From Tragulus kanchil (Eukaryota; Chordata; Mammalia; Artiodactyla; Tragulidae), in NCBI GenBank assembly GCA_022376925.1, contig JAIOJX010000025.1, positions 186,185,801 to 186,249,800 on the forward strand: a stretch of DNA of 64,000 nt, in the 5' to 3' direction. Position 1 is the first letter of the stretch; each line of letters starts with the position of its first letter. A program made the translations under genes and the position numbers. Below the pieces are notes generated by a model. That model was given only the letters and a program-made list of their open reading frames with translations, did no database searches and was not told the DNA's origin. Shown here one piece after another: positions 11,955 through 59,718 of this stretch.

Positions 11955-14212
11955 CAAGGCCTGCCCTTCCGGGTCCGGCTGGGGTTGCTAAGTGTGCAGG
12001 CCCCGGGTGCTCCCAAAGGCCCCACATCGGTCTCGGTCCCCGTCCTGGCCGCCGGCTCTGAGCGCTGAGTCGGTGTCTCTGAGGCGCGGCCTCTGGTCCG
12101 CATGGCGGCGGAGGTGGTGAGCCCGCGGGGCGAGAGGTGCTCCCCGCCGCCCGCGCCTCCTCCCCGGCACTGAGACGGACCTGCGACCGAGCTCTCTCCG
12201 CTCCTCCCCACCTCACCGCCCCCCACAGAGGAGGAGCTGGGGCTCCGGGGAGCGGCGGCCGTCCACGCGGCGGGCAGGGTCAGGGTCAGGGTCTGGACGT
12301 GGGTCCGTGTGGCTGGGTGGCTCAGCCTGGACAGGGTCAGGGGTCTCTGCTGGGGACCTGATCCGGCCCCACAGGTCGCACTTCCTGTCTCCGGTGCTGG
12401 GAGCAGAGGAGGGAGTGCGCTCCCAGCACGAGGGAGCTGTCCCGGCATGGGGACTGGCTCCCTGCCGGGCGCACAGGAGGTGCACAGGTAGCTGAGGGGA
12501 CAGAGTCACAGCTCTGCGGTGAGGGTCGGCCGTCTCGTTACCTGAGCAGAGTACGCGGCCCTCCGGGGAGCCCGCCCAGCGTCACGGGGTGAGGACCCCT
12601 CCCGGGCCGACAACAAGGGCCTGCAGTGCATAGTGTGCCGCACGAGGACGCCCCGGGTCAGCGCTTCCCGCGGGCTCCGGACGCGCAGCGAGGCAGCCCC
12701 AGGCCACCCCGTCTGCCCCCTCTCCCCACGCGCGTCCCCGAGGCAGCGCCTCTGAGCCGTCACTCACGGTAACCCGATCAGCGCAGGACAAGGATCTGAG
12801 GCACCGAGACAAGAGACGTCTTAATTAGCGGCTTTTCCGGAGCAGCCGGAGCCCCAGACGTCTCTTTACTCGTCTGAGCCGGAAACCCAGGCTTCTCGGC
12901 GGGGCTGCCGGGCGCTGGCTCCTCGCCGTGCGGCCCACCACGCGTGTGCAGGCATGGCCGTGGCCCGCGGGGCCGAGGGCTCGTGTCTGGTGTCCACCTG
13001 GCCCGGGACACGCATCGCCTGCTTTCTGCAGGTGCAGCGTGAGCTCCCAGCTGCAGGGGCGGTCCCACGGGGAGCCATGGCTGGGTCCGTGCAAGGCCTG
13101 CCCTTCCGGGTCCGGCTGGGGTTGCTAAGTGTGCAGGCCCCGGGTGCTCCCAAAGGCCCCACATCGGTCTCGGTCCCCGTCCTGGCCGCCGGCTCTGAGC
13201 GCTGAGTCGGTGTCTCTGAGGCGCGGCCTCTGGTCCGCATGGCGGCGGAGGTGGTGAGCCCGCGGGGCGAGAGGTGCTCCCCGCCGCCCGCGCCTCCTCC
13301 CCGGCACTGAGACGGACCTGCGACCGAGCTCTCTCCGCTCCTCCCCACCTCACCGCCCCCCACAGAGGAGGAGCTGGGGCTCCGGGGAGCGGCGGCCGTC
13401 CACGCGGCGGGCAGGGTCAGGGTCAGGGTCTGGACGTGGGTCCGTGTGGCTGGGTGGCTCAGCCTGGACAGGGTCAGGGGTCTCTGCTGGGGACCTGATC
13501 CGGCCCCACAGGTCGCACTTCCTGTCTCCGGTGCTGGGAGCAGAGGAGGGAGTGCGCTCCCAGCACGAGGGAGCTGTCCCGGCATGGGGACTGGCTCCCT
13601 GCCGGGCGCACAGGAGGTGCACAGGTAGCTGAGGGGACAGAGTCACAGCTCTGCGGTGAGGGTCGGCCGTCTCGTTACCTGAGCAGAGTACGCGGCCCTC
13701 CGGGGAGCCCGCCCAGCGTCACGGGGTGAGGACCCCTCCCGGGCCGACAACAAGGGCCTGCAGTGCATAGTGTGCCGCACGAGGACGCCCCGGGTCAGCG
13801 CTTCCCGCGGGCTCCGGACGCGCAGCGAGGCAGCCCCAGGCCACCCCGTCTGCCCCCTCTCCCCACGCGCGTCCCCGAGGCAGCGCCTCTGAGCCGTCAC
13901 TCACGGTAACCCGATCAGCGCAGGACAAGGATCTGAGGCACCGAGACAAGAGACGTCTTAATTAGCGGCTTTTCCGGAGCAGCCGGAGCCCCAGACGTCT
14001 CTTTACTCGTCTGAGCCGGAAACCCAGGCTTCTCGGCGGGGCTGCCGGGCGCTGGCTCCTCGCCGTGCGGCCCACCACGCGTGTGCAGGCATGGCCGTGG
14101 CCCGCGGGGCCGAGGGCTCGTGTCTGGTGTCCACCTGGCCCGGGACACGCATCGCCTGCTTTCTGCAGGTGCAGCGTGAGCTCCCAGCTGCAGGGGCGGT
14201 CCCACGGGGAGC
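11955..14212. repeat. Direct duplication 1 (two ~1121-bp copies)
   Basis: Copy A 11955-13075 and copy B 13092-14212 have a period of 1137 and look identical throughout; 16 bases (13076-13091) lie between them. Content is GC-rich single-copy DNA with frequent CpG, no recognised repeat or exon. Boundaries carry no target-site duplication or element terminus. Most likely an unmerged contig overlap; a real tandem duplication is the alternative. Confidence 0.95.
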
Positions 14213-15657
14213 GCGGTCCGGGGCAGCAAGGTTGGCCGGTGCTGTGGACCGTCCAGCAGTGATTCCAGACCTGCGGTCAGAGCCCGCGGAGCCTGCCGCG
14301 GGAGGGGCAGGCCGTGCCTGGGTTCCTGGGGAGCGCTGCTGGTCCTCAGCTGGTGACGGACCCGGAGAAGTCACCCCCGCGCCCCCGGTAGCCCAGAGCC
14401 GACGCGCCTGGCAGGGGCTCCCGACGGGCCTTGGAGACGGAGGAGGTCCGAGGCAGGCGAGCCGAAGAGGAGGTCCGAGCAGGAACGGGACAGAGCAGGC
14501 GAGGCCCAGCCGCGTGCGGGCCCAGCAGGAGAAGTCCACACCCCTCCACGCCCGCGGCAGACGCCTGACCGCGCACAGCCCGTCCAGCCCGATGGCCGAC
14601 ACCGACTCGGCCCAGCCCTGTCTTAAGAGGAGCCCAAGGCCGGGCGGAAAGCGCTACGGGAAAGGGCTGAACACGGCTCAAGCGTTTGCTCATGCTGCAA
14701 ACACCCAGGGCAGTAACACCCACTGTCCACACTGCGTCCACATGAGCGGACGTGGTCCAGGCCTGGACGGGTGCCCTTGGCAGGCGGGTGGCTGGGCGGG
14801 AGGGAGGACCCCTGCTCCGACTTGAAGTCTGGTTCCTGAAAGACCACACAAGTCTGAGCCCCTAACAGCCTCGGGGGTGATGACGAGAACACGGCTGGCC
14901 ACGGGAAGACCCAGGGGAGGCGCGCCACTCAGGCCCGACGCGGGACAGGAGGCCGCGACGCGGGCCCGCTGGGCTTCCTCTCCAGCCGCCGCGTCCACGC
15001 CGGACTCCCAGGGCCTGGGCTGGCGGCTTCCTCTCTGGGGTTCTAGGGCCAGCTCCCGAGGCCTGAGGCCATGTCCAGGGTGGGAGTGTCCACACAACAG
15101 CATCACCCGGGGACCCCCGAGCTGGGGCTGGGAGCATCGCTGGCCATGCCCACGCCCCGCGGAGGGCCCGGGCGAGGCCCGCACAGGCAGCGGGCGGCCA
15201 CGACGGGCGGCGGGCGCGGTCGCCGGGCTCAGCAGGAGGTCACGCCTGAAGGCCGGGGGGCGGCTGGGGAGGGGATGAGCCCCCCACAGAGACATGCTGG
15301 CCGTGCCTAAGGCTGCTGTGGAAGAGGCCTCCCGTGGGCGGGGCGGGGCAGGGGCGGAGGGCTTAGAGAGGACGCTGCTCCCTCGGAGCCTAGGACAGGT
15401 CCCGGGGCCCCTCCTGGCCCCGAGGACGCCATCTGTGCTCCCGTGCACCGACCGCTGCACCCAGGGTCCGGGCGGGACCTCTCGAGAGCGGCTGAGGTCA
15501 CGCCCTCTGCCCTGTCCAGATGGGCCGGGCTGACCCCGTCCGCGGCAGGAGAGGACAATGGCCGCTGTTGTCAGCCGGTCGCCCTCGGCCACATTCTCCA
15601 GGGGCCTAGTGACCCTGAACAGGGGCCGGGAAGAGGTCCCTGCTGACTCAGCGCGAT
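14213..15657. other. GC-rich single-copy DNA
   Basis: No recognised repeat. The 575-codon minus-strand open frame spanning 14690-16417 reads across into duplication 2 and has no domain, so it is not supported as a gene. Confidence 0.5.
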
Positions 15658-17842
15658 GTCCACTCGCTAATGAAGGGCCGTTGGAAAGGGCATTGACCTT
15701 GGTCAGCAGGCAGGAGCCCTCCATCCAGGGGGCCGCCGCAGGAGAGAGGAAGGGTGACGCGGTCTTACCTGCCCCCGGCCAGAGCACTCGCCCTGCCACT
15801 CTGGAGGCCACCGCCCCGGGCAGCCAATGTGCACATCCGCCGGGGAGACAGGGCCGGGACGGGGAAGCAGGCTCAGAGTCAAGGCGCTCTCCCCAGTGAT
15901 GAGGAAAGAGGCCGCACAATGACAGTGACCACAGCCGGGTGGTGGGAGGACGGCGTGGCCTTAACCCAACCTGGAGGTCAAGGAGGGCTGCCTGGAGGAG
16001 GCGGCGCAGAGCCAGGTCTCCAAGGATGGATGGGATTGGAAAGACGCCGCAGAAGAAGAAAGGGCTTCCAGATAGGAAGCCGCGTGGACGATGGTCTGGG
16101 GCAGAGAAAGCACGGCAGGTAGTCTGCCATGGCGGCACTGGCTGCCGGGGACTGAGGGAGCCGGCCGGGCGGCACCGAGGGACGGAGCCAGAGAGAGCGT
16201 CATACGTGTGAAAAACACCTGCTCTGGGTTGGAGAGAGGAGAGCGGCTTCCAGGAAGCCCGTGGGGCGTGGCGGAGGGGCCTGGAGAGAGGCGACGCGGG
16301 CGAGGTCTTCGGGGAGGACGGCACAGGAGCCAGAGTGGGTAAAGGCGTGGGCCTGGCGACCGTCCAGGTGGAGGGGCTCCCGGGGACTCGGGATCCGCGG
16401 GCATTAGAGCAGCGCAAGACCGGCCTGGCAGAACCGTGGGGGAGGCCGCCCCAGCTGGAGCCGGAACCCGGGGGCAGGGAGACACACAGCGCAGAGGCAT
16501 GAAATCAGCGGACCGTTCCTCAGGCCGTGGGACACGTGTGAGGCGGGACCCAGACGGGAGGCCGAGGGGCCGTGGGGAGACGCGGCCCCGAGCCGGCGCT
16601 CCAGGCTCCTCAGAGGGAGGGAGGCTGGAGGGGCCCCCTGGAAGGACGGAGGGTCTGGGGTCTGCAGACGTGAGACTGTGCAGCAGGCGAACAGTCTCTG
16701 TGACCTCTGGGGCCCCACAACCAGGGCCAGGGCCTTCCTGCTCAAGCTTGGTCCACTCGCTAATGAAGGGCCGTTGGAAAGGGCATTGACCTTGGTCAGC
16801 AGGCAGGAGCCCTCCATCCAGGGGGCCGCCGCAGGAGAGAGGAAGGGTGACGCGGTCTTACCTACCCCCGGCCAGAGCACTCGCCCTGCCACTCTGGAGG
16901 CCACCGCCCCGGGCAGCCAATGTGCACATCCGCCGGGGAGACAGGGCCGGGACGGGGAAGCAGGCTCAGAGTCAAGGCGCTCTCCCCAGTGATGAGGAAA
17001 GAGGCCGTGACCGCACAATGACAGTGACCACAGCCGGGTGGTGGGAGGACGGCGTGGCCTTAACCCAACCTGGAGGTCAAGGAGGGCTGCCTGGAGGAGG
17101 CGGCGCAGAGCCAGGTCTCCAAGGATGGATGGGATTGGAAAGACGCCGCAGAAGAAGAAAGGGCTTCCAGATAGGAAGCCGCGTGGACGATGGTCTGGGG
17201 CAGAGAAAGCACGGCAGGTAGTCTGCCATGGCGGCACTGGCTGCCGGGGACTGAGGGAGCCGGCCGGGCGGCACCGAGGGACGGAGCCAGAGAGAGCGTC
17301 ATACGTGTGAAAAACACCTGCTCTGGGTTGGAGAGGAGAGCGGCTTCCAGGAAGCCCGTGGGGCGTGGCGGAGGGGCCTGGAGAGAGGCGACGCGGGCGA
17401 GGTCTTCGGGGAGGACGGCACAGGAGCCAGAGTGGGTAAAGGCGTGGGCCTGGCGACCGTCCAGGTGGAGGGGCTCCCGGGGACTCGGGATCCGCGGGCA
17501 TTAGAGCAGCGCAAGACCGGCCTGGCAGAACCGTGGGGGAGGCCGCCCCAGCTGGAGCCGGAACCCGGGGGCAGGGAGACACACAGCGCAGAGGCATGAA
17601 ATCAGCGGACCGTTCCTCAGGCCGTGGGACACGTGTGAGGCGGGACCCAGACGGGAGGCCGAGGGGCCGTGGGGAGACGCGGCCCCGAGCCGGCGCTCCA
17701 GGCTCCTCAGAGGGAGGGAGGCTGGAGGGGCCCCCTGGAAGGACGGAGGGTCTGGGGTCTGCAGACGTGAGACTGTGCAGCAGGCGAACAGTCTCTGTGA
17801 CCTCTGCCCACACCAGGGCCAGGGCCTCCTGCTCAAGCTTGG
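15658..17842. repeat. Direct duplication 2 (two ~1.09-kb copies)
   Basis: Copy A 15658-16750 and copy B 16751-about 17842 abut directly. Differences include a 6-base gain in B near 17008, a 2-base loss near 17330, and several indels in the last ~45 bases of copy A (16705-16750) against B. The excess of differences at the junction end of A is what low-quality contig ends would give. Confidence 0.95.
15960..16085 (-). mobile_element. L2 LINE fragment
   Basis: gtcaaggagggctgcctgga, then gagccaggtctccaaggatg, matches the complement of the well-known L2 3' segment (lagging 'ggcttcctggaggaggt...cttgaaggatg' pattern). A second copy sits at about 17060-17185 through duplication 2. Confidence 0.6.
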
Positions 17843-18342: not shown

Positions 18343-18683
18343 GAGGCACCGGGGAGATCCCACAGGGAGGACAGTTTACAAAACCTGACCACCTGCAGGT
18401 CAAAAAAGGAACCTCAACAAGTTTACGTGGGGAAGCTTCCTACAGACTGTGTCCTCTGACCACAGTGCAGTTTATCAGCAATAAAAGCAGTTTAATAAAC
18501 GTACAGATAAGTCTGCTCATGGGGTCGCGAGAGTCGGACGTACCTTATCGACTGAGCAACAACAGCATGTAAGTCTGTGAACTTCAGAGGCAGTCCTGAG
18601 AATCGTATGTGCTAAAGAGGAAAATACAGATTACTTAACGTTGAATGGACACAAGGGTAGGACGTAGAAGCTTTCTGGGTGGT

Positions 18684-19016
18684 ACTTCCCTGGTGGTCCA
18701 GTGGAGAAGAATCCGCCTGCCAGCGCAGGGGACGTGCGCTCCATCCCTGGCCTGGGAATTCCACACACCCTGGAGCAACTAAGCCCATGTGCCACACCGA
18801 CGGGAGCCCACACCCCAAACTCCTGGTGCCCGATCCCCCAAGGACCGCGAGCGGCCACTACCGAAGCCTGCGTGTGAAGAGCCCGTGCTCTGAAACCAGA
18901 AGCCACCACCGTGGGATGGCCGTGCCTCCCAGAACGAAGCCCAGGTCCTACTCACGCCGCTAGAGAAAGCCTGTACACGGCAGTGAAGACCCGGCAGAGC
19001 TGATAAATAAATAGCA
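18684..19016 (+). mobile_element. CHR-type SINE inserted in the L1
   Basis: Begins acttccctggtggtccagtg and shows gaatccgcctgccagcgcag and gcaactaagcccatgtgcca (long CHR-2-like body). The end is gctgataaataaatagc. About 330 bases, near full length. Confidence 0.9.
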
Positions 19017-19776
19017 AAGAAAAGAAAACAAATGTTTCCCAGTGTGTACCTAAACTGGTCTTTGGAGGTGTATTTACAAACTATGTATTATCACAAAACA
19101 AGAAAACCTAAAAATACATAAGCAGCCTGTTAAACTAAAGGAAATAACAGGAGAATGATAATAACTGCAAAGAATACTCAAGAAAAAAAGCCAATCTGAG
19201 TAGAAACTGATTAAAAGGCAATGGAGAAAAACAGAAAAGATCAACAAGAGCCAACCGTGGTTCCCTGAGGAAGTAAGAGAGGAAAGTCGCTAGTAAAACC
19301 AGACAGGAAGAAGGCGCTACAGAGAAGCAGCCCCAGAATGAAGAAGGGAACGTGACAGAGGTGCACACGCGTTCACAGGTTGTAGAAGAATACTGCGATC
19401 AGCTTTGTGCCAATCCATTTCATGTGGAAGTAAGTGGGCAATTTTGGCGGGGTTGGAGCAGCAGAAAATTACAAAACCTGACCACCTGCAGGTCAAAAAG
19501 GGAAGCTCAACAAGGTTACGTGGGGGAGCTTCCTACAGACTGTGTCCTCTGACCACAGTGCAGTTTATCAGCAATAAAAGCAGTTTAATAAACGTACAGA
19601 TAAGTCTGCTCATGGGGTCGCGAGAGTCGGACGTACCTTATCGACTGAGCAACAACAGCATGTAAGTCTGTGAACTTCAGAGGCAGTCCTGAGAATCGTA
19701 TGTGCTAAAGAGGAAAATACAGATTACTTAACGTTGAATGGACACAAGGGTAGGACGTAGAAGCTTTCTGGGTGGT

Positions 19777-20109
19777 ACTTCCCTGGTGGTCCAGTGGAGA
19801 AGAATCCGCCTGCCAGCGCAGGGGACGTGCGCTCCATCCCTGGCCTGGGAATTCCACACACCCTGGAGCAACTAAGCCCATGTGCCACACCGACGGGAGC
19901 CCACACCCCAAACTCCTGGTGCCCGATCCCCCAAGGACCGCGAGCGGCCACTACCGAAGCCTGCGTGTGAAGAGCCCGTGCTCTGAAACCAGAAGCCACC
20001 ACCGTGGGATGGCCGTGCCTCCCAGAACGAAGCCCAGGTCCTACTCACGCCGCTAGAGAAAGCCTGTACACGGCAGTGAAGACCCGGCAGAGCTGATAAA
20101 TAAATAGCA
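19777..20109 (+). mobile_element. CHR-type SINE, copy within duplication 3
   Basis: Same element as at 18684, repeated base for base through duplication 3. It is not an independent insertion. Confidence 0.9.
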
Positions 20110-20831
20110 AAGAAAAGAAAACAAATGTTTCCCAGTGTGTACCTAAACTGGTCTTTGGAGGTGTATTTACAAACTATGTATTATCACAAAACAAGAAAAC
20201 CTAAAAATACATAAGCAGCCTGTTAAACTAAAGGAAATAACAGGAGAATGATAATAACTGCAAAGAATACTCAAGAAAAAAAGCCAATCTGAGTAGAAAC
20301 TGATTAAAAGGCAATGGAGAAAAACAGAAAAGATCAACAAGAGCCAACCGTGGTTCCCTGAGGAAGTAAGAGAGGAAAGTCGCTAGTAAAACCAGACAGG
20401 AAGAAGGCGCTACAGAGAAGCAGCCCCAGAATGAAGAAGGGAACGTGACAGAGGTGCACACGCGTTCACAGGTTGTAGAAGAATACTGCGATCAGCTTTG
20501 TGCCAATCCATTTCATGTGGAAGTAAGTGGGCAATTTTCTTGAAAATACATCAATTACCAAAATTAAGTCACAGTGAAAGAGACGATATGGGCAAGCCAC
20601 GCAGGAGGCGGACTGATTAGCAAAACTGTGCGCCTCCCAACAGCAAAGAGCTACCGGCTCACAAAGCATCACAGCCAGGCATCCGACCTTCAGGGACCAG
20701 CCCAGCCCCGGCGTGCGCCCTCTGCTTCATCGAGCGTGGCAGGAGGCGGGGAGCAAACGGAAAATCAATTCACTGTCTGAGACTGGGGTAACCTAAGGCC
20801 CAACGCTCAGCGACAACTCATAAACAGACGT

Positions 20832-21119
20832 GGGCTTCCCCGGTGGTCCAGTGGTCAGGAATCCACCTGCCAGTGCAGGGGACACAGGTTCCGTCCTTCG
20901 TCTGAGAAGGTCCCACACGCTCGGGGGGACTAAGTGCAGGCACCACGAGCACTGACGCCTGCGTGCCGAGAGCCCCTGAGCAGCAGCAGGAGAAGCCACG
21001 GCAGCAAGAAGCCCGAGCATGGCAACCGGAGCACCCCGCTCACCACAGCGGGAGGACGCCAGCACTCCGCAGCGCAAACTGCGTGCAGCCAATAATGAAT
21101 CAATAGATAATGATTTTCA
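20832..21119 (+). mobile_element. CHR-type SINE
   Basis: gggcttccccggtggtccag head, gaatccacctgccagtgcag, and a long CHR-2-like body with repeated 'aagcc' motifs. It ends directly against a second SINE. Repeated at 21916-22203. Confidence 0.88.
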
Positions 21120-21412
21120 GGGCTTCCCTGGTGGTCCAGTGGGTAAGGACACTGCCTTGCAGTGCAAGGGGCGCTGGTTCGATCCCTGGCCCAGGAATAT
21201 CCCACGTGCCACGGAGCAGCTGGACTGGTGTGTCCAACTACCGAGCTGGAGTTCTGGAGCGCATGCGCCCAGGGCTGGTGCTCTGCGACGAGAGAGGTCA
21301 CTGTGATGGGAGGCCCACACAGTCCAAAGAACAAAGATGGACGAAAATAGATAAATGAAAGACCAATAAAAGAGGCCAAAATTAAAAAAAAAAACTAATA
21401 AATAAATAATGA
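21120..21412 (+). mobile_element. CHR-type SINE (variant with 'ggccaaaatt' tail)
   Basis: Well-preserved: ggcttccctggtggtccagt, box-B region ggttcgatccctggcccagg, body ggagcgcatgcgcccagggc, end gaccaataaaagaggccaaa and A-rich tail. It sits head-to-tail behind the previous SINE. Confidence 0.93.
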
Positions 21413-21915
21413 TTTAAAAAAATAAACAAAAGACATTATACCGACTTTAATTGTAAACATAGGCGCAAAAAAAAAGAAACTAAAGGGGAAGACTTGCAAA
21501 TCAAATCTAGCAATGTGGTAAGAGAACTTCCAGTTGTTTAGTTCATCCCATACGTGCAAGGAGAGTTCTCAATCCAGTGATAAGCAATGGCACATGGAGA
21601 GATGAAAGTAGGAGGGATGTAAAAAATCCATTAGGTCATTTTAAGAGATGTCAAACTAGTATTCAATAGAATTCATTCACTGGTTGCTTCATTTTCAAAA
21701 TAAGTAACTATGAATAGAATGAAAATTCCCCATTAGGATATAGTTAGACAAAGTCTAGGTTGAGCAGCCAAACAAAGGGACCAGCCCAGCCCCGGCGTGC
21801 GCCCTCTGCTTCATCGAGCGTGGCAGGAGGCGGGGAGCAAACGGAAAATCAATTCACTGTCTGAGACTGGGGTAACCTAAGGCCCAACGCTCAGCGACAA
21901 CTCATAAACAGACGT

Positions 21916-22203
21916 GGGCTTCCCCGGTGGTCCAGTGGTCAGGAATCCACCTGCCAGTGCAGGGGACACAGGTTCCGTCCTTCGTCTGAGAAGGTCCCAC
22001 ACGCTCGGGGGGACTAAGTGCAGGCACCACGAGCACTGACGCCTGCGTGCCGAGAGCCCCTGAGCAGCAGCAGGAGAAGCCACGGCAGCAAGAAGCCCGA
22101 GCATGGCAACCGGAGCACCCCGCTCACCACAGCGGGAGGACGCCAGCACTCGGCAGCGCAAACTGCGTGCAGCCAATAATGAATCAATAGATAATGATTT
22201 TCA
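21916..22203 (+). mobile_element. CHR-type SINE, copy within duplication 4
   Basis: Second copy of the element at 20832, generated by duplication 4. Confidence 0.88.
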
Positions 22204-22496
22204 GGGCTTCCCTGGTGGTCCAGTGGGTAAGGACACTGCCTTGCAGTGCAAGGGGCGCTGGTTCGATCCCTGGCCCAGGAATATCCCACGTGCCACGGAG
22301 CAGCTGGACTGGTGTGTCCAACTACCGAGCTGGAGCTCTGGAGCGCATGCGCCCAGGGCTGGTGCTCTGCGACGAGAGAGGTCACTGTGATGGGAGGCCC
22401 ACACAGTCCAAAGAACAAAGATGGACGAAAATAGATAAATGAAAGACCAATAAAAGAGGCCAAAATTAAAAAAAAAAACTAATAAATAAATAATGA
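22204..22496 (+). mobile_element. CHR-type SINE (variant), copy within duplication 4
   Basis: Second copy of the element at 21120, with one or two substitutions. Confidence 0.92.
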
Positions 22497-22866
22497 TTTA
22501 AAAAAATAAACAAAAGACATTATACCGACTTTAATTGTAAACATAGGCGCAAAAAAAAAGAAACTAAAGGGGAAGACTTGCAAATCAAATCTAGCAATGT
22601 GGTAAGAGAACTTCCAGTTGTTTAGTTCATCCCATACGTGCAAGGAGAGTTCTCAATCCAGTGATAAGCAATGGCACATGGAGAGATGAAAGTAGGAGGG
22701 ATGTAAAAAATCCATTAGGTCATTTTAAGAGATGTCAAACTAGTATTCAATAGAATTCATTCACTGGTTGCTTCATTTTCAAAATAAGTAACTATGAATA
22801 GAATGAAAATTCCCCATTAGGATATAGTTAGACAAAGTCTAGGTTGAGCAGCCAAACAAAGGGACC

Positions 22867-23257
22867 CAAAGGCATCAGGACGAGATGGAGTCTGTCCCTG
22901 TGACAGGAAACAGTGCAGAGAGAGCAGGGTGACTGGTCAGACAGGCGGCTCTGCTCGCCCAGCTCAGCCGGGGACGCGGGCTCCCACGGGCTGTGGTCCT
23001 TGCCCATCCAGTCCACGCGGGCTCACCAGTACCATCACCATTTCCACAGAGAAGGAAAATGACACAAAGCTTGTACATATCGCTTCTTGGGCATGGGGTC
23101 CACCAACACTGGAAAATATACTTCCCATCTGACATCTGCAAGCCCTGCCAAAGTAGTTCTACTACCAGAAGGAAAAGTTAAGGGAGAACGGGTCGCCAGG
23201 GGCAATGTGCAGGCTCTACTATAGCCAATAAAAGTTATCTACCAAAAATATAGAGCA
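22867..23257. other. Unassigned stretch between L1 pieces
   Basis: Mixed composition. The last part (tatagccaataaaagttatc) could be L1; the GC-richer first half (22870-23030) is not recognised. Confidence 0.4.
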
Positions 23258-23532
23258 GGGCTTCCCTGGTGGTCCAGTGGGCGGAGAGTCCGCCTTGCAG
23301 TGCAAGGGGCACCAGTTCGACCCCTGGTCTGGGCGGCTCCCACGTGCCGTGGAGCAGCTGGCCCGGCGTGTCCCATTGCGAGCCAGTGCTCTAGAGCACA
23401 TGCGCCCGGAGCCAGTGCTCTGCGGCGAGAGGGGCCGCTGCAGTGGGAGGCCCACACAGGCCAAAAGAATCAAGGATAGATGCAAATAAATAAATGAAGA
23501 ACCAATAAAAGAGGCCAAAGTTAAAAATATAG
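23258..23532 (+). mobile_element. CHR-type SINE (variant with 'ggccaaagtt' tail)
   Basis: gggcttccctggtggtccag, ccttgcagtgcaaggggcac, body gagcacatgcgcccggagcc, end aaccaataaaagaggccaaa. Full length. Confidence 0.93.
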
Positions 23533-40720: not shown

Positions 40721-40740
40721 CAACTCTTGTTTATTATCTT

Positions 40741-41570: not shown

Positions 41571-41885
41571 AGCGCTGGGTCCCTTTTGCTGCTCGGTCAC
41601 CGGGCCGTGGCCGACTCTCTGCGACCCTGGTAAAGGCTATGGTGCAGAGCCAGTACTAAGCAGGGGTGAAAAGCTGGACTCTGGACAGAGCTAGCGATTA
41701 AGCTTCTGCCTCTGTCATGCTGTGGCCTCACGACGTTGAGCCTTTCTCTTGGTCACTCTGTGCCTCTGTTTCCCCAGCTGTATCTGGAGGACCACGGCAG
41801 TTGTCACCTCACTGGCTGGTGTAGGCTGGGGTCAATGGGTACACCGCTATGGCACGCGGCAGTCACAACTCTTGTTTATTATCTT

Positions 41886-42715: not shown

Positions 42716-42727
42716 AGCGCTGGGTCC

Positions 42728-43233: not shown

Positions 43234-43512
43234 TTAGGCTTCCCTGGTGGTCCAGTGGGTAGAGAGTCCGTCTTGCAGTGCAAGGGGCACCGGTTTGATC
43301 CCCGGCCCGGGAAGATCGCACATGCCACGGAGCCGCTAGACCAGTGTGCCCAATTATGAGCCGGCGCTCTGGAGCGCGTGTGACCAGAGCCAGTGCTCTG
43401 AAACGAGAGAGGCCACTGCATCGGGAGCCCCACACAAGACAAAAGAATAGAGATGGATGAAAATAAGTAAATCAAAAAACAATAAAAGAGGCCAAATTTT
43501 TTTTAAAAGAGC
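43234..43512 (+). mobile_element. CHR-type SINE (variant with 'ggccaaattt' tail)
   Basis: ggcttccctggtggtccagt, gtcttgcagtgcaaggggca, ctggagcgcgtgtgaccaga, end acaataaaagaggccaaatt. Full length. Confidence 0.93.
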
Positions 43513-44344
43513 AGAGGTAGATTATGATATGTGAATTGTATCTCAATAGAGGTGTTACTTTAGAAAAGCTTCCCCAATAAATCTTGACAGATGAAGTGGG
43601 AGAAAATTTTGTCACGTGGGAGACGAGGGGTCAGTGTGATTCTATGCTGTGACCCCTGCGGCTGGCTGGCCCTGGAGCCTCCACGCTGCCCGACGGTCCG
43701 GGCTGGACCCTCACGACGGCGCCCCTCTTGGGGCTCTGAGGCCAGGGACTGACGAGCACGGCGGGTGGGAAGGCACTGGAGGGAAGCGTCCTGTGGTGGA
43801 GACCCCGGCTCCACAGAGTGCCTCCCTCCTCCTGGGGTCTCAAGGAACACTCCCTGGGCATCAGCAAATCCTGTCCAGGAGGAGACAAGCATCCGGAAAC
43901 TGCCGTCTACCAGGTTTTTCTTCTCCACAGCCCCACCTCACCCCCTCTATCTACCTGCTAGAGGTGCCCCAGGTCCAAAGTGCGCAGTCCCCCCCCACGC
44001 CCTCCTCAAACCCGTGCGGCTGCCAGCGTCTCTGCTCCCCTCGGTGACAGGCGGAGCCTCCCTCGACGGCTGTCCGTGCGGCGCACCCTCAGAGACGCCG
44101 GGCCAAGCGGGTGGCCGAGGCTGAAGCCCAGCTCGCTCTCTGCGCCCTCTCACCCAGCCAAGCAGCCCAGAGCGCAGAGCCCGCCATCACTCTCAGGAGA
44201 GTGACCGGCAGGTCAGCCACCAGCCTGGAGGGAGGGAGCGGGGGAGGGGCTGTGAACCGCCATCGCTCACAGTCGGTGCTCACAGGCACTGTTAAATGTG
44301 ACCACTAGAGCCATTGGAAACGGACGGATGTGTGAATGTCGTAA

Positions 44345-44520
44345 CAGGCTACGTCGTGTGCAAGCTGCTCAGTCACGTCCAGCTCTTTGCGACCCATGGG
44401 ACACGCCACGGAATTCTCCGAGCAAGAATCCTGGCGCGAGTAGCCTGTCCCTTTTCCAGGGGGTCATTCCGAGTCAGAAATCAAACCGAGGTCTTCTGCA
44501 TTCCAGGCTAATTCTTTTTC
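44345..44520 (-). mobile_element. Bov-tA SINE fragment
   Basis: ctgctcagtcacgtccagct, ctctttgcgacccatgggac, gaattctccgagcaagaatc, caaaccgaggtcttctgcat. Complement of Bov-tA, diverged. Repeated at 45431-45606. Confidence 0.85.
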
Positions 44521-44523
44521 ACT

Positions 44524-44613
44524 GGTTTCTTTGGCCACTTCTATTGGTCTTTCATTTATTCATTTCCATCCATCCTTGTTCTCTGGCCCGTGTGGGCCTC
44601 CCATCGCAGTGGC
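44524..44613 (-). mobile_element. CHR-type SINE cut by the junction of duplication 8
   Basis: ttctttggccacttctattg to ccatcgcagtggc, then abrupt change to the start of copy B. The missing part is present in the equivalent element at 45610. Confidence 0.9.
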
Positions 44614-45430
44614 TATGTGAATTGTATCTCAATAGAGGTGTTACTTTAGAAAAACTTCCCCAATAAATCTTGACAGATGAAGTGGGAGAAAATTTTGTCA
44701 CGTGGGAGACGAGGGGTCAGTGTGATTCTATGCTGTGACCCCTGCGGCTGGCTGGCCCTGGAGCCTCCACGCTGCCCAACGGTCCGGGCTGGACCCTCAC
44801 GACGGCGCCCCTCTTGGGGCTCTGAGGCCAGGGACTGACGAGCACGGCGGGTGGGAAGGCACTGGAGGGAAGCGTCCTGTGGTGGAGACCCCGGCTCCAC
44901 AGAGTGCCTCCCTCCTCCTGGGGTCTCAAGGAACACTCCCTGGGCATCAGCAAATCCTGTCCAGGAGGAGACAAGCATCCGGAAACTGCCGTCTACCAGG
45001 TTTTTCTTCTCCACAGCCCCACCTCACCCCCTCTATCTACCTGCTAGAGGTGCCCCAGGTCCAAAGTGCGCAGTCCCCCCCCACGCCCTCCGCAAACCCG
45101 TGCGGCTGCCAGCGTCTCTGCTCCCCTCGGTGACAGGCGGAGCCTCCCTCGACGGCTGTCCATGCGGCGCCCCCTCAGAGACGCCGGGCCAAGCGGGTGG
45201 CCGAGGCTGAAGCCCAGCTCGCTCTCTGCGCCCTCTCACCCAGCCAAGCAGCCCAGAGCGCAGAGCCTGTCATCATTCTCAGGAGAGTGACCGGCAGGTC
45301 AGCCACCAGCCTGGAGGGAGGGAGGGGGGAGGGGCTGTGAACCCGCGATCGCTCACAGTCGGTGCTCACAGGCACTGTTAAATGTGACCACTAGAGCCAT
45401 TGGAAACGGACGGATGTGTGAATGTCGTAA

Positions 45431-45606
45431 CAGGCTACGTCGTGTGCAAGCTGCTCAGTCACGTCCAGCTCTTTGCGACCCATGGGACACGCCACGGAAT
45501 TCTCCAAGCAAGAATCCTGGCGCGAGTAGCCTGTCCCTTTTCCAGGGGGTCATTCCGAGTCAGAAATCAAACCGAGGTCTTCTGCTTTCCAGGCTAATTC
45601 TTTTTC
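45431..45606 (-). mobile_element. Bov-tA SINE fragment, copy within duplication 8
   Basis: Second copy of the element at 44345. Confidence 0.85.
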
Positions 45607-45609
45607 ACT

Positions 45610-45876
45610 GGTTTCTTTGGCCACTTCTATTGGTCTTTGATTTATTCATTTCCATCCATCCTTGTTCTCTGGCCCGTGTGGGCCTCCCATCGCAGTGGCC
45701 TCCTCTGCAGAGCATCGGCTCTGGGCGCATGCGCTCCAGAGTGGCTGCTCGGTAGTTGGACACATCCGTCCAGCTGCTCCACGGCACGCGGGGTCTTCCC
45801 AGGCCAGGGATTGAACCGGCGCCCCTTGCCCTGCAAGGCGGTGTCCTCACCCACTGGACCACCAGGGAAGCCCTGC
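45610..45876 (-). mobile_element. CHR-type SINE, complete version
   Basis: tttggccacttctattggtc, ggcgcatgcgctccagagtg, gattgaaccggcgccccttg, ctggaccaccagggaagccc. Continues from copy B of duplication 8 into unique flank, showing that copy B carries the true right-hand context. Confidence 0.93.
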
Positions 45877-48325: not shown

Positions 48326-51201
48326 TTAGCACTTGCTCCAGACAGATTTGGAGGGGTCCACCATGCTGAGACAGACCCAGGCTGGGCTCCCCACACACCC
48401 CGGGGGACTCGGATCTGCAGGCCACTAGGAGTAAGGCAAGGATGACATGCGACCCTGGTCAAAAGATGACCCCAAGGCAGGCGGGAGCCATCATCCAGGC
48501 GTTTCCCCGCCCTGCAGACCAAAGCTGGCTGCCCAGAGCGGGGGCCCAGACCTCACCACCGGCCATCTGGCACGTGGCCCCACCTTCTTGGTGAACAGCA
48601 GGAGATCTCTGACTACAAAGAGAAAAATGTTCCCTCTGTCAGAAAGAGAGCTGCTTCCAAACCTGGCTCTCCTGAGCAGCTCGAGTTACACCAAGGCAGG
48701 AATTCCTATCCACTGTGTGCGGGGCGCGGGGTGCAGGGCCTGGAGGCAGGTGGGGCGGCCAGCGAGTCCCCGAGGAGGCTGCCCCTCCTCCCTCCTCCCG
48801 CTGCCCGGGGGATCCCCAGAGCCTTGGTCCTCCTGCCTCTAAGCGGGAGCACCGGTGAGCGGACGGAGCCGGGAGCCTTGCAAGGGAGCAGGGCCCTCCC
48901 AACACCTGGACCTCAGACTCTGGGCCACAGGACTGTGAGAGATGAAGCCCCAGGACACTCACATGGGAGAGCTGTGGCCCCCAGGCCACCCGGAGCCCCC
49001 AACGCAACCTCGCCAGGCCCGTGTCTGCCGCCCCACGGCTTCCTCCAGTCCCGCCCCGCCGGCCGGCCGGGGCAGGAGGAAGCGGAGACCCAGGAGGCGC
49101 TCTGAGGGGGGCACCCCTTTCCTAGAGGCAGCGCTAGGTGGATTCAGTTTAGTCCCCCTGTGATCACGGCTTGTCCCTTGACCCCGCTGGCCACGCCATG
49201 GGTCAGACAGGGGCCTCAGCCCTTGCTGCCGGCCAGGCGGGCCCGGGTGGAGGGGAGGGGGGCAACAAAGCGTGTGATGTGGGGGTGACCCTGGGCCTGG
49301 CCCGACTCCTGGTCTCTCTGGGCCTCCTTGGCCCATGGCCCTCACTCCAGCCGCCCCCAGCCCACCCGCGTTCCTGAGACCACTTGGGGAGGGGCCCCCG
49401 GGGTTGGCACCCAGGGGCCGAGCCGCGAGAGTCTCAAATGCGTGAGCAAGTGGGCTCCTGCCGACGGCGCGGCTGCGTGAGCGGCTCGAAGGGCGCCCGC
49501 CACGGGTGTGGAGGGACGGGTCCGGCGTGGAGGGAACAGGGCCCCTAACAGCAGGCGCTGCTCCTGGGGCGGGGACAGGCGGGGTCTCAGTGGGGGTCCC
49601 AAGCTGACCTGAGCACTCACTCCACGCTCCGGGCCCCGGACCCCTGTCCCCGACCTGCGGGAGCCTCTGCGTGACCTGGGGAGTCCCGGACACCTCCTGG
49701 GGTGCTCAGCCCTGTCCTCTGACACGCCCTCTAACTTTGGAACTATTTTACCTCCTGGTATTCTCCATCCAGCGGCCCTGCTGACCGCCATGGCAGCCCC
49801 TCGAGGCCACAGAGGTTCCCACCCCGCGCTGCCCCTCCCCGACTCTCAGGAGGCCCGGGCTCCCACCAGGCACCAAGGCGGCGCTCTCCTCCAGGCCCGG
49901 CCGCTGCCCCCCACCAGGCACCACCCCACCCCACCCCGCACACCCCCGACCCCCACCCAGCCCACCGCTCCGCCAGAAGCCTTGCACCAGCTAGCTGCCC
50001 TGGAGCTCCGGAAGCTCCCACGCATGCTCGGTGCTGGCGCCACCTGCCCAGGAGCCCCCGCCCCGCCCAGCGTCAGTGCGGGCACTGCCACGTGGCGCCC
50101 TCTGCGCGCCTCCCCTCCCTGGGGGGCCTGAGGCGCCCGCGGGGCCCCTGGGCCGGGCGGACGCCCAGGAAGGCGCATGGCCCGGTGAGGGGGTGGCAGC
50201 CTCTGGGCTCCTCCGCCTCCTCAGCAGGACCAGGGGCCCCTGAGTCCACGCCAGCCCTGGTGCCAGGCACAGGGTCCCACGGCGCGCACTCGGAGATCGG
50301 GAAGCCTGCAGACCCGGGAGCAGCAGGCAGGAACGGTCGGCCACCTGCCCTGGGAGACGGGGCCTACGTGTCCCTCTGGGTGGGAAGGACGGGTGAGACA
50401 GGGGCTCTGGGTCTTTATGGCACAAGAGAAGACCCGCGGGCGGCAGGGATCTGAGTCTCCCACAGAGCCTGGACTGGGGGGCAGCGTGGCGCCCCCGGCC
50501 CAGGGAGGATGGCCCTGCAGCTCCGTTCCGCATGTGACTCGCCTGCCGGCACATCCCCACCTCCTGGGAATCCACACGAAAGCGGCCCTCTCCGGCCTGT
50601 CTGCGGGGGGCAGCACCTCGCCACCCGCGGCTCTCCCGCAGAGGCAGGGCCCCCAGGCTCAGAGTCAGGCTTCGGCAAGACCCCAGGTACCCAGCCTGCG
50701 GGTTGGGGGTCCCAAGGCCAGGCCAGTGGGTTTGATCACAAGCCAGGCAGACCCTCGACCCCAGGCCCTGTCTCCAGGGGCACACACAGGAGGCCTGGTC
50801 TGCGACGGCTTGGGGGAACAGGCAGGCTCCTTAGACGGCCGGTCCCCGGCCCTGGAAGGGAGAGCCTCGCGCCCCCGTGGGAGCTCTCGGGCGAGCAGTG
50901 TGGAGGGTGCCTGGGCGTGCGGGCCATCACTCAGGTCAGTCTGAGCAACTGGCTGTGGGTTAAGCCAATTGAGTGATTTGTATGAAAATAACAGATGGGC
51001 TCACTCAGGAGGCAGACTTCCAGCCACACAGCCCAGGGGCGGAGGGGGACAGGCCAGGAGGCTGGAGAGCCAGCGCGGTCTCAGCATTTCCTCCTTGTGT
51101 TCGGCCAAAGGGCGGGGGGCGGGGGGGATGCCACGACGGTTTCCTGTGCACCTACTCTGCCCCAGTGGTGGGGAGGGGTTGGCACAGCCTCCTTTCCTGT
51201 G
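48326..51201. other. GC-rich single-copy DNA
   Basis: Nearly 2.9 kb without a recognised repeat. A C-run segment at 49915-49965 could form a G-quadruplex on the opposite strand. Several 200+ codon open frames overlap on both strands without domains. This is a reasonable place for unrecognised exons, but none is supported. Confidence 0.45.
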
Positions 51202-53418
51202 ACCCCCTCAAACCCCTGGGGAGCAAGAGCCACGGGAGGAAGTGGCAGCTCAGAGAGGTCGAGGGCTTTGCCCAACGCCACACAGCCAGAGCGCGGCGTG
51301 CCGCCTCCTGCCGGTCTGTCTGGCAGCCTGGACCGTCTCAAAGGCGGCTGCACGCCCTCGGCACACGCGAGAGCTTCCGCCTGGCCTGGGTGTGGGGACC
51401 GAACACGCCTCCCCCCACTGGCTGAGTTCAGCGGAGCTGCTGGGGGCTGAGGTCAGGCGAGCGCTGAGGAGGTTGGTTCCAACCGAAGGGCTTGTCTTGC
51501 TGCTGATTTGCAGCTCCGGGCAGGGCCTCCGCGCTGCCTCCCAAGACCTGCTCCCCCGTCTGCTTTAGTAACAAAACTCTCTCTGGAATGCAGGGGTGGC
51601 GAGCCCGCTAGGAATTCCTAAAAGAGAGGAAGAGGCCCCTTTCCCTATTGCCTTTGCCCTTCTTCCTGAAAGGAACGACGATGTGAGGGCCGGAGCTTCA
51701 GCGGCTGTCCCGTGGCCTGGAGGAGGCAGCACGTGGGTTAGGAGGGCAGACGGAACGGCACGGGCTCCTGGGCCCCTGGTGTGGTCCCGGAGCACCACGC
51801 CAGCCCGCCGCGTCCAGCTCGGCTGCCTGCAGCTGGGCCCAGCCGCGGTCGGCAGCGGCCAAACACAAATGCCCACCAGCCCGCCGAGACAGGGAGCCCA
51901 CTTGTATTAGTTAGTGCACTGACTCAGTTTCCTAAGTAGCTACCAAGTCACAGGGGCTTTTGCAGGACAGAAGGTCTCATCTCACGTGACGACGCACGGT
52001 GGTAAGGGGTCCGGTGGTGGCAGCTCTGTTCTGCTCCGAGTGATGCCATCCCAGACAGCCAGGAAGGGGAGAGAAGGCTGCCAAGTTCTGCCCAACTCCT
52101 CGCGAAGAGAAAGGCCTGGAGCGGCAGCCAGCACTGGTGAGAACCTTGTCCTGAAGCCAGGTGAGGCGCTTGGGGTGCCCGGGAGCCACGGCCTCTGGCT
52201 GAGGGGCCCGTGACACTCGGCCGAAGGCAGGGGAGGGCACGCACAGCTCTCTCGCCTGGGGCCAGGAAACCTTGAGCATTTTCTGTCTTTTATGTTGCAC
52301 TTGCCCGTGAACCCCCTCAAACCCCTGGGGAGCAAGAGCCACGGGAGGAAGTGGCAGCTCAGAGGTCGAGGGCTTTGCCCAACGCCACACAGCCAGAGCG
52401 CGGCGTGCCGCCTCCTGCCGGTCTGTCTGGCAGCCTGGACCGTCTCAAAGGCGGCTGCACGCCCTCGGCACACGCGAGAGCTTCCGCCTGGCCTGGGTGT
52501 GGGGACCGAACACGCCTCCCCCCACTGGCTGAGTTCAGCGGAGCTGCTGGGGGCTGAGGTCAGGCGAGCGCTGAGGAGGTTGGTTCCAACCGAAGGGCTT
52601 GTCTTGCTGCTGATTTGCAGCTCCGGGCAGGGCCTCCGCGCTGCCTCCCAAGACCTGCTCCCCCGTCTGCTTTAGTAACAAAACTCTCTCTGGAATGCAG
52701 GGGTGGCGAGCCCGCTAGGAATTCCTAAAAGAGAGGAAGAGGCCCCTTTCCCTATTGCCTTTGCCCTTCTTCCTGAAAGGAACGACGATGTGAGGGCCGG
52801 AGCTTCAGCGGCTGTCCCGTGGCCTGGAGGAGGCAGCACGTGGGTTAGGAGGGCAGACGGGAACGGCACGAGCTCCTGGGCCCCTGGTGTCGTCACGGAG
52901 CACCACGCCAGCCCGCCGCCTCCAGCTCGGCTTCCTGCTGCTGTGCCCAGGCGCGGTCAGCAGCAGCCAAACACAAATGCCCACCAGCCCCGCCGAGAAA
53001 GGGAGCCCACTTGTATTAGTTAGTGCACTGACTCAGTTTCCTAAGTAGCTACCAAGTCACAGGGGCTTTTGCAGGACAGAAGGTCTCATCTCACGTGACG
53101 ACGCACGGTGGTAAGGGGTCCGGTGGTGGCAGCTCTGTTCTGCTCCGAGTGATGCCATCCCAGACAGCCAGGAAGGGGAGAGAAGGCTGCCAAGTTCTGC
53201 CCAACTCCTCGCGAAGAGAAAGGCCTGGAGCGGCAGCCAGCACTGGTGAGAACCTTGTCCTGAAGCCAGGTGAGGCGCTTGGGGTGCCCGGGAGCCACGG
53301 CCTCTGGCTGAGGGGCCCGTGACACTCGGCCGAAGGCAGGGGAGGGCACGCACAGCTCTCCTCGCCTGGGGCCAGGGAAACCTTACGAGCATTTTCTGTC
53401 TTTTTTATGTTGCACTTG
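51202..53418. repeat. Direct duplication 9 (two ~1.1-kb copies)
   Basis: Copy A 51202-52304 and copy B 52311-53418. Copy A lacks single bases in homopolymers near its end (52245-52295 against 53350-53410: ctctctcg/ctctcctcg, gaaacc/ggaaacc, cttttatg/cttttttatg). A dense patch of mostly transversions lies at 51780-51870 against 52890-52980. Both look like low-quality read ends. The unit starts in a MIR-like piece and is otherwise unassigned. Confidence 0.94.
51225..51300 (-). mobile_element. MIR fragment
   Basis: gtggcagctcagagaggtcg, then gcccaacgccacacagccag. Complement of MIR core; repeated near 52334-52407. Confidence 0.72.
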
Positions 53419-53650: not shown

Positions 53651-54124
53651 CCACCGCAAAACACACTCGTGGGCCCGTCCCGTGGCCCCTCCCTCCCTCC
53701 TGCCCCACCCACAGCCGCCATCCGGACGGTGTTGGAGAAACCGACCCCTCACACACACGCACGGCCGCCTCTCCCGGTACTGGCCCAGCCTTCGGTGGGT
53801 CCTGGGGACCCAGGTGTGATGGACACACGTCCCCGCCAGCCAGCCAGCCTGTGACAGACGTGCTGCAGCTGCCCCTGCGGTGTGAAGGCCGCCCCACTCC
53901 CCCAGGGACAGAGCCTTGAGCCCGGAGGAGCCTGAGTGGGCTGAAGGGCCCCAGGCCCAGAGCGGCTGCTCAGATCCGTCCACACGCGCTTATCACGCCA
54001 GGGAAAACGGCAGCGCTGCGGGGAGCTTTCCTTTCCTCATGTGGAAGGAGGACATCAGAATTCAGATGTAGCCTGAACACCCGAGAAGGTGAAGGTCAGG
54101 CATCAACGGGGCTCACAGCCTAGA
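53651..54124. other. Single-copy DNA
   Basis: GC-rich to 53970, then mixed; 54040-54124 may belong to the LTR-like element that follows. Confidence 0.4.
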
Positions 54125-54244
54125 TGTCACGGTGAAGGCCTTTTTTAGACGAGATTCACACCTAAATCAACAGATTCCAACGGAGGCAGACTACCTGCCA
54201 CAGTGTGGGTGGGCCGCCTCCAATCGGCTGAAGGCCTTTAGAGC

Positions 54245-54752
54245 AAAGAGCAGAGTATTAAAAAGTAGAGACCCCACTCCACTGACAAAGTTCCATATGG
54301 TCAAAGCGATGGCGTCTCCAGTCGTCGTGGACAGGTGTGAGAGCTGGACCATGAAGAAGCTTGAGTCCTTAAGAACTGGTGCTTTTGACCTGTGGTGTTG
54401 GAGACTCTTGAGAATCCTTTGGACAGCAAGGAGATCAAACCAGTCCATCCTAAAGGAAATCGACCCTGAATATTCACTGGAAGGACTGACGTTGAAGCTG
54501 AAGCTTGAACACTTTGGCCACCTGATGGGAAGAGCCCACTCGTTGCAAAAGACCCTGACGCTGGGAAAGGCTGAGGGCAGGAGGAGAAGGGGGAGACCGA
54601 GGGTGAAATGGTTGGATGGCATCATAAACTCAACGGGCGTGAACCTGCGCCATCTCCAGGAGAGGGTGAAGGACAGAGAAGCCTGGCGTGCTTCCGTCCA
54701 CGGAGTCGCAAAGAGTCAGACACGACTCAGCAACTGGGCAACACCAGCAAAG
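54245..54752 (+). mobile_element. BovB LINE 3' fragment with reverse-transcriptase C-terminus
   Basis: Best-preserved BovB piece here. An open frame from 54132 crosses it and encodes the end of BovB ORF2, including CESWTMKKLESLRTGAFDLW, LEHFGHLMGRAHSL, GRPRVKWLDGI and WRASVHGVAKSQTRL. The catalytic reverse-transcriptase motifs lie upstream and are absent, so it is inactive. It is 5'-truncated as usual for LINE insertions and ends cacgactcagcaactggg. Confidence 0.93.
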
Positions 54753-54956
54753 GGCAAAGACGGAGGGTCCCTACGCAGAAGGAATTCTTCTCAGATTGCG
54801 TCCCAGAGACACTGCCTGGGGCTACGGGACCGGGCTCACACCGCACTGCTGTCCAGAGCCGCAGCCGCAGCCGCCCTACGGAGCTCAGAGGGGCCGCCGG
54901 CCCCACCGCCACGCGCACCGACTTTGCTAAAATAAATTCCCTCTGTCCACCCTCTC

Positions 54957-57502: not shown

Positions 57503-57561
57503 TCATTTTTACAAAGGTTGGGGGACGGGGGAGTCCACCTACAGTATACTCGATTACACCC

Positions 57562-57765
57562 AGGGTCTTCCCAGGGCGTGATAAAGAAGCCGCCTACCAA
57601 TGCAGGAGACGCCAGTTCGATGCCGGGGTGGGGGAGATCCGCTGGAGGGGGCCACGGCCACCCCCTGGGGATTCCTGCCTAGGAGAGCCCAAGGACAGAG
57701 GAGCCTGGCGGGCTGCAGGCCGGGGGTCGCGCAGAGTGGCACAGGACTAAGCACGCATGCACAAT
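57562..57765 (+). mobile_element. Bov-tA SINE
   Basis: cttcccagggcgtgataaag head, gccgcctaccaatgcaggag, agttcgatgccggggtgggg, gcctggcgggctgcaggccg, end ggactaagcacgcatgcac. Confidence 0.9.
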
Positions 57766-57899
57766 GTATTTCCTAGTCTAAAAATAAATAAATTAGAGAA
57801 AAAAATCAAAATCATTGAAAACTATTTCTGGGATACCCTGAGTGTTCTTTTTGGCTATACATTCTGAAATTTCTACAACGAACGAACCAGAAATGCAGG

Positions 57900-58612
57900 G
57901 CTTGTCCTCGTGAAGTCGGACGCGGTCCTGCCCCGAGGCTTCAGGGCGGCTCACGCTGCGCGCTCCTGGCGCAGGGCTGGCACCACGGGCGGCGGCCTCG
58001 CCCTGGGAAGGTCGGGTCCATGGGCATCGACCCCGCGAGAAGGCGGGGATCCTCCCCAGTCCCGGGAAGGAAGCGGAGGAGCGAGCCCAGGTGGGCGCCG
58101 GCAGAGCGGCCTCCCTTTCTCCAGGCCTGGCGCTTCCTTGGCTTTGCGCTCAGGCCCAGCTCCGTTCCCGGGTGACAGCTGGCCCGGAGCCCTGGGCCTC
58201 GGCCTGGCCTCTCCGCGGCTGTAAGGGGCAGCTTAGGCACCGGAGGGCCCTTCCCCGAGGATGCAGGACTTCCCAGTTTCTGGATCCTTCTGCGATTCCT
58301 CTCAGGTCTGGGTCTGGAAGGTCGAGGATCGTACATCTCCAGGTGGCAGCAATCGAAGCTCCGCATTTGACCCGGGAGGGAGCGCAACGTCCCCAAGGGT
58401 CCCAAACCGCCGCAGGCCCCCCGCCCACCCCGCCCTCACCCCTGCCCACTGGGAGCGCGCGTCTCCGGTGGCATCTTCGCGCTGGGCAGCGAGCGGACCC
58501 AGGTGGCCTGAGCCGCGTCTCTGCCGGGCAAGAAAGCGGTGGTGGGCGGGCGCGCCGCGGGGGGCCAGCGGGCTGCGGAGGCACAGGAGGGATGAGGGCC
58601 GGAGGGGCCGGG
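57900..58612. other. CpG-rich block
   Basis: High CpG (gaagtcggacgcggtcctgc, gaaggcggggatcctcccca, gcgcgccgcggggggccagc). It could be a CpG island, but I see no exon/intron structure I can support. Repeated at 59007-59715 by duplication 10. Confidence 0.45.
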
Positions 58613-58668
58613 TCATTTTACAAAGGTTGGGGACGGGGAGTCCACTACAGTATACTCGATTACACCCA

Positions 58669-58870
58669 GGGGCTTCCCAGGGCGTGATAAAGAAGCCGCC
58701 TACCAATGCAGGAGACGCCAGTTCGATGCCGGGGTAGGGGAGATCCGCTGGAGGGGGCCACGGCCACCCCCTGGGGATTCCTGCCTAGGAGAGCCCAAGG
58801 ACAGAGGAGCCTGGCGGGCTGCAGGCCGGGGGTCGCGCAGAGTGGCACAGGACTAAGCACGCATGCACAA
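58669..58870 (+). mobile_element. Bov-tA SINE, copy within duplication 10
   Basis: Second copy of the element at 57562. Confidence 0.9.
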
Positions 58871-59718
58871 TGTATTTCCTAGTCTAAAAATAAATAAATT
58901 AGAGAAAAAAATCAAAATCATTGAAAACTATTTCTGGGATACCCTGAGTGTTCTTTTTGGCTATACATTCTGAAATTTCTACAACGAACGAACCAGAAAC
59001 GCAGGGCTTGTCCTCGTGAAGTCGGACGCGGTCCTGCCCCGAGGCTTCAGGGCGGCTCACGCTGCGCGCTCCTGGCGCAGGGCTGGCACCACGGGCGGCG
59101 GCCTCGCCCTGGGAAGGTCGGGTCCATGGGCATCGACCCCGCGAGAAGGCGGGGATCCTCCCCAGTCCCGGGAAGGAAGCGGAGGAGCGAGCCCAGGTGG
59201 GCGCCGGCCGCGTGGCCTCCCTTTCTCCAGGCCTGGCGCTTCCTTGGCTTTGCGCTCAGGCCCAGCTCCGTTCCCGGGTGACAGCTGACCCGGAGCCCTG
59301 GGCCTCGGCCTGGCCTCTCCGCGGCTGTAAGGGGCAGCTTAGGCACCGGAGGGCCCTTCCCCGAGGATGCGGGACTTCCCAGTTTCTGGATCCTTCTGCG
59401 ATTCCTCTCAGGTCTGGGTCTGGAAGGTCGAGGATCGTACATCTCCAGGTGGCAGCAATCGAAGCTCCGCATTTGACCCGGGAGGGAGCGCAACGTCCCC
59501 AAGGGTCCCAAACCGCCGCAGGCCCCCCGCCCACCCCGCCCTCACCCCTGCCCACTGGGAGCGCGCGTCTCCGGTGGCATCTTCGCGCTGGGCAGCGAGC
59601 GGACCCAGGTGGCCTGAGCCGCGTCTCTGCCGGGCAAGAAAGCGGTGGTGGGCGGGCGCGCCGCGGGGGGCCAGCGGGCTGCGGAGGCACAGGAGGGATG
59701 AGGGCCGAGGGGCGGCTT

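Follow-up and report, generated by a model that had tools for sequence, protein, structure and literature searches.

How does a stretch of mammalian genome come to hold ten tandem repeats of nearly one length and unrelated content? We addressed this question in a window of 64,000 bases (62.7% GC) from Tragulus kanchil (GenBank assembly GCA_022376925.1, contig JAIOJX010000025.1, positions 186,185,801 to 186,249,800 of the forward strand; coordinates below count from the first base of the window). A preliminary description, made from the letters alone, had pointed out ten adjacent direct duplications of about 1.1 kb and had attributed them to contig overlaps that were never merged. Our analysis leads to the same view. 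At a probability of roughly 0.95 the ten pairs are an assembly artifact, most likely overlapping contig ends left unmerged; we are less sure of the exact form of the artifact (contig overlap, haplotypes or gap filling).

Ten adjacent direct repeats of near-constant length

Self-BLAST of the window and pairwise alignment of the copies confirmed all ten pairs (Table 1). In 10/10 the copies are adjacent and direct, and their identities, expressed as the percentage of aligned columns, range from 97.9 to 100%. The pairs fall into two sets, with pairs 1, 3, 4, 5 and 7 at 99.6–100% and pairs 2, 6, 8, 9 and 10 at 97.9–98.9%. Pair 7 is taken to start at 40482, the first base of the clean match; starting ten bases earlier, at 40472 as BLAST does, gives 99.48%. 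No third copy of any unit was found in the self-BLAST, and among the matches listed those outside the pairs reach at most 86.6% identity. Chance origin of the pairs is ruled out because, once the left copies are set aside, no exact repeat at an offset of 800–1,400 bases exceeds 26 bases, and that one lies between two short interspersed nuclear elements (SINEs).

The periods lie between 1,084 and 1,146 bases, with a mean of ~1,109 and a coefficient of variation (CV) of 0.020, in agreement with the near-constant period first described. The distance between successive junctions is 2.3–11.0 kb (CV 0.56). Both statistics rest on periods and junction midpoints read off the alignments; in pairs 2, 6 and 9 the period drifts along the copy because of internal indels of net length. 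With one period removed per pair, the window comes to 52,907 bases, which matches the predicted true span near 52.9 kb.

The content of the units had been described as unrelated between pairs, and this is so apart from repeat pieces. A single 20-mer, counting either strand, is common to two units (pairs 3 and 4), and a SINE piece is common to pairs 4 and 8, in opposite orientation, at 86.6% over 82 bases (self-BLAST). A mobile-element origin was rejected because the units share nothing beyond such pieces and have no common ends by eye.

Table 1. Repeat pairs and dispersed elements of the 64,000-base window
Feature	Left copy, or positions	Spacer	Right copy	Strand	Identity and differences
Pair 1	11955-13075	13076-13091	13092-14212	+	1121/1121 identical (100%)
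Pair 2	15658-16751		16751-17842	+	98.64%; 1 substitution, 14 gap columns
Pair 3	18376-19445	19446-19468	19469-20538	+	99.63%; 4 differences
Pair 4	20692-21782		21776-22866	+	99.82%; 7-base shared junction
Pair 5	31652-32744	32745-32758	32759-33851	+	99.91%
Pair 6	36950-38081		38080-39215	+	98.68%; 11 substitutions, one 4-base indel
Pair 7	40482-41627		41628-42772	+	99.74%
Pair 8	43528-44613		44614-45699	+	98.71%
Pair 9	51192-52303		52300-53418	+	97.86%; differences at both ends and a central cluster
Pair 10	57507-58608	58609-58615	58616-59713	+	98.91%
Dispersed SINE-like repeats	21118-21388, 22202-22472, 23256-23527, 43237-43499, 45616-45875, 9340-9640, 8572-8798, 11537-11776				
Retroelement pieces, presumably BovB-like	54093-54935, 42764-43120, 28850-29271, 1411-1574				

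Junctions and boundaries

The spacers between copies range from -7 to +23 bases. Of the 0-23 bases given at first, the upper value stands, and the lower is replaced by overlaps of 1, 7, 2 and 4 bases in pairs 2, 4, 6 and 9, respectively. The junction of pair 5, earlier placed at 32738, has been corrected to a spacer of 14 bases. Neither a motif common to the boundary sequences nor a target-site duplication is visible by eye, and no element ends were seen by eye at the pair boundaries, as had been stated. The junction of pair 8 cuts a SINE at 44613 (end of the left copy); at the right-copy end (45699) the element continues to its own end at 45875.

We compared the sequence beyond the mapped ends of the copies for continuation of the overlaps, with ten upstream and ten downstream comparisons. 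An anchored test (300 shuffles each) gave p 0.003 upstream of pairs 2 and 7 and p 0.053 for pair 5, the other 17 comparisons having p of at least 0.087. When 2,000 real positions of the window served as the reference in a local test, p was 0.0015 for pair 5 and at least 0.14 for the other 19, including the upstream comparisons of pairs 2 (p 0.144) and 7 (p 0.456). Hidden continuation of the overlaps past their mapped ends was thus rejected except for pair 5, where the local test supports it. At that junction stands the 13-base sequence GTAGCACTGGGAC (32739-32751), which on the plus strand occurs a second time only at 31614-31626, just upstream of the left copy. It is as if the right contig of pair 5 had begun, in garbled form, ~40 bases farther upstream.

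Differences between the copies

The alignments contain 75 copy-to-copy difference events, distributed over ten equal bins of relative position as 14, 5, 1, 3, 3, 21, 12, 4, 2 and 10. Two features of this distribution stand out, an excess at the ends and a peak in the middle. Within 100 bases of the ends, or 18% of the length, lie 24 of the 75 events (binomial p 0.004), and these are different in kind: 14 of the 24 are indels, compared with 7 of the 51 farther in (Fisher p 0.00017). The two tests assume independent events, though events cluster by pair. Changes of run length make up 10 of the 14 end indels and 3 of the 7 others. The four differences of pair 3 fall within its first 60 bases, and each is a G in the right copy; in pair 10 three single-base run-length indels all lie within the first 31 bases.

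The central peak (bins 6 and 7) holds 33 of the 75 events, 31 of them from pairs 6, 8, 9 and 10 by hand count. Such a peak would be consistent with breakage at a divergent or otherwise difficult site, with each contig extending about half a kilobase past it. GC content gives little support for a central break. The centers of the overlaps exceed their edges in GC by 0.056 relative to positions drawn at random from the window (p 0.034); the local GC maximum in the overlap center (p 0.50) and the mean GC of the copies (p 0.73) are ordinary, and for that reason a GC-driven break at the overlap middle was not relied on.

Contig ends left unmerged as the probable origin

A sequence of steps in assembly could produce this pattern. 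The draft would have been broken into contigs at ten places, and each contig would have extended about half a kilobase beyond its break, so that neighbors overlapped by ~1.1 kb (2 x 0.55 kb). Scaffolding or gap closing would then have joined the neighbors end to end, without N and with -7 to +23 bases between them, the overlap going unrecognized. A technical scale, either the length of a read or corrected read or twice the reach of contig extension, would then set the near-constant length, and such a scale accounts for a length that stays fixed as the content varies. We infer the contig origin, the joining step, the software involved and the source of the 1.1 kb scale.

Overlaps left unmerged account for the fixed length, the unrelated content, the lack of element ends or a boundary motif, and the concentration of indels at the ends. 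The starts of the right copies and the ends of the left copies are where contig ends would lie, and indels are enriched there. The original argument, from fixed length with varying content to unmerged overlaps, is therefore supported by the length CV, the end-concentrated indels and published precedents (see below).

Several observations weigh against this explanation. The window contains no N letter, hence none at any of the ten junctions, so that a later gap-closing step or a join made without N must be assumed. It is odd that a merger should miss overlaps of 98–100% identity ten times. The unit length is more constant than that of published overlaps. The central cluster of differences is not predicted by simple end errors. 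Contig ends that lose bases should place the gap in the contig-end copy; 9 of the 14 end indels have it there and 5 have it in the opposite copy, a direction that is suggestive and not decisive. Finally, the 7-base junction microhomology of pair 4 is above what chance usually gives, by estimate and not by computation.

Published false duplications and the haplotype alternative

In the available text of Kelley and Salzberg (2010; PMC2864568), 1,094 of 1,366 duplicated overlapping contigs in the cow assembly UMD1.6 were judged mis-assembled, for a total of 1.09 Mb; chimpanzee had 13,159 duplicated overlapping contigs (13.7 Mb) and chicken 5,698 overlapping contigs (10.8 Mb). Division of these totals gives mean contig sizes of ~1.0 kb for cow and chimpanzee and ~1.9 kb for chicken. 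The window pairs resemble these cases in the ~1.0 kb scale seen in cow and chimpanzee and in their high identity. They differ in that 5/10 reach at least 99.6% and in that the published lengths vary more; the same text says of most such contigs merely that they are shorter than 2,000 bp and, as far as it goes, documents nothing like a 2% CV, a further point against our explanation. The available part of the Bos taurus assembly paper (PMC2686734) offers no overlap length for comparison.

The cause named for those contigs, divergent haplotypes with a median identity of 98.1% and few cases above 99.5% (PMC2864568), suggests the strongest alternative, in which parental alleles around a divergent stretch were placed in tandem (heterotype duplication). 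This, too, would be an artifact, and it is compatible with contig overlap; as the account of the whole set we consider it unlikely. Pairs 2, 6, 8, 9 and 10, at 97.9–98.9%, are near the published median, and clusters of differences in mid-overlap, as in pairs 6, 8, 9 and 10, are expected where a divergent site caused the break. Transitions also make up over half of the substitutions in pairs 6 (7/11), 8 (7/12) and 10 (5/8), but just 4/13 in pair 9. Against allelic origin, the run-length changes that dominate the end-zone indels (10/14) are more error-like than allele-like, and pairs 1, 3, 4, 5 and 7 are at least 99.6% identical, one without any difference, in a range where few haplotype cases are reported (PMC2864568). 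Because half of the pairs are 99.6–100% identical, haplotype divergence alone fails to explain the set; it may contribute to pairs 2, 6, 8, 9 and 10.

Closer precedents for the more identical pairs are the homotype duplications described by the Vertebrate Genomes Project (Rhie et al.; PMC8081667), which occur at contig boundaries, have about the length of one read and lie in tandem once scaffolded, the copies being separated by a gap. According to Ko et al. (PMC9516828), false duplications can be recognized by gaps, discordant read pairs and a read depth that is halved or very low. As far as the available text of these two papers shows, the window pairs would resemble such cases in duplicating sequence of one locus at contig boundaries, in tandem, and perhaps in a length near that of a (corrected) read, and differ in that the published cases have a gap and low depth, whereas the window pairs have no N. 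We would liken the set in origin to homotype duplications and duplicated overlapping contigs and, the junctions having no N gap, do not claim formal membership. On their identities, pairs 1, 3, 4, 5 and 7 would fit the homotype kind best, and pairs 2, 6, 8, 9 and 10 could be of the haplotype kind. A bovine survey of segmental duplications, as excerpted, excluded alignments of at least 99.5% as possible unmerged alleles due to local assembly errors (PMC2796684). The ten-pair set does not appear among the listed titles of matching papers, and titles alone are no proof that it is unreported.

Gap filling and real duplication as improbable alternatives

A gap filler that inserted a read fragment repeating a fixed-length flank would be another form of artifact, not exclusive with unmerged contig overlaps, and rather improbable. 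The fixed length and the lack of N suit a tool with fixed anchors, and the available description of the scaffolder LRScaf calls it prone to artificial contig duplications (PMC8849508). A filler that repeats its anchors should, however, double both flanks and leave two tandem pairs per gap, and a single pair stands at each site.

Real tandem duplications would mean ten separate events of near-equal length, each sealed through end joining that left a short insertion or used microhomology, and are highly improbable. Junctions with 0–23 inserted or 1–7 shared bases do look like end-joining scars, and identity below 100% in 9/10 pairs allows some age. Local tandem duplications predominate in cattle in the excerpted survey (PMC2796684), but there the blocks are tens of kilobases long. 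Ten duplications of ~1.1 kb would have had to arise in 48 kb irrespective of sequence, and we know of no process that generates them; the pairs have no motif in common by eye and no third copy in the self-BLAST, and their indels are concentrated at the junction-proximal ends. Least credible of all is a novel mutational process in which sequence-independent tandem duplication, quantized at ~1.1 kb, produced ten real pairs in 48 kb.

Repeats and reading frames of the window

The SINE-like repeats of Table 1 align as eight sequences of 227–301 bases, which represent seven elements since one occurs twice, together with a truncated piece, and we take the family to resemble ruminant Bov-tA. The two tRNA-Cys genes called by a tRNA finder are two copies of one SINE in pair 4. 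Cow has tRNA-like SINEs, and the ruminant family is traced to tRNA-Glu in the available text of PMC2680898, whereas the finder called tRNA-Cys here.

The largest retroelement piece contains an open frame (54093-54935) that matched no Pfam family and had at least 8,000 public protein predictions as relatives at E 0.001 (8,000/8,000 scored candidates). Of the 120 relatives listed, 117 came from ena and 3 from jgi, and one was labelled PF00078, which we take to be reverse transcriptase. Their abundance perhaps reflects host DNA in sequenced samples. The resemblance of this and the other retroelement pieces to BovB is our presumption, and on the strength of these repeats we regard the window as nuclear DNA of a ruminant.

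Ten open frames chosen from 52 matched no Pfam family at 0.01, and no gene was identified among them; Rfam gave no match at gathering score. For a 639-aa open frame that crosses pair 6 (minus strand, 37372-39291), none of the 7,991 candidates scored matched at E 0.001, and against viral_contigs 5 stretches matched the pattern and 0 were confirmed. Aimed at an independent version of pair 6, these null results are weak evidence either way. Pair 6 also contains a 14-base tandem array (37112-37147 and 38237-38277), which receives different scores from the repeat finder in the two copies. Between pairs 6 and 7, and in neither, is an imperfect tandem array of ATGATG / ATGATGGTG units, placed at 39749-40271 by the repeat finder, with self-matches to ~40466 and a listed span of 39749-40449.

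Consequences

If the pairs are an artifact, ~11 kb of the 64 kb (17%) would be false sequence. Scaffolds of this kind should be flagged, with no recourse to reads, by a filter that looks in the self-alignment for neighboring repeats whose length is nearly constant. Left in place, the pairs would risk being misread as recent tandem duplication, gene gain or copy-number variation; the tRNA-Cys-like call doubled in pair 4 would be an example of false gene gain. The pairs are very probably an error in the data and not biology of Tragulus kanchil, and their value lies in the warning they give about data quality.
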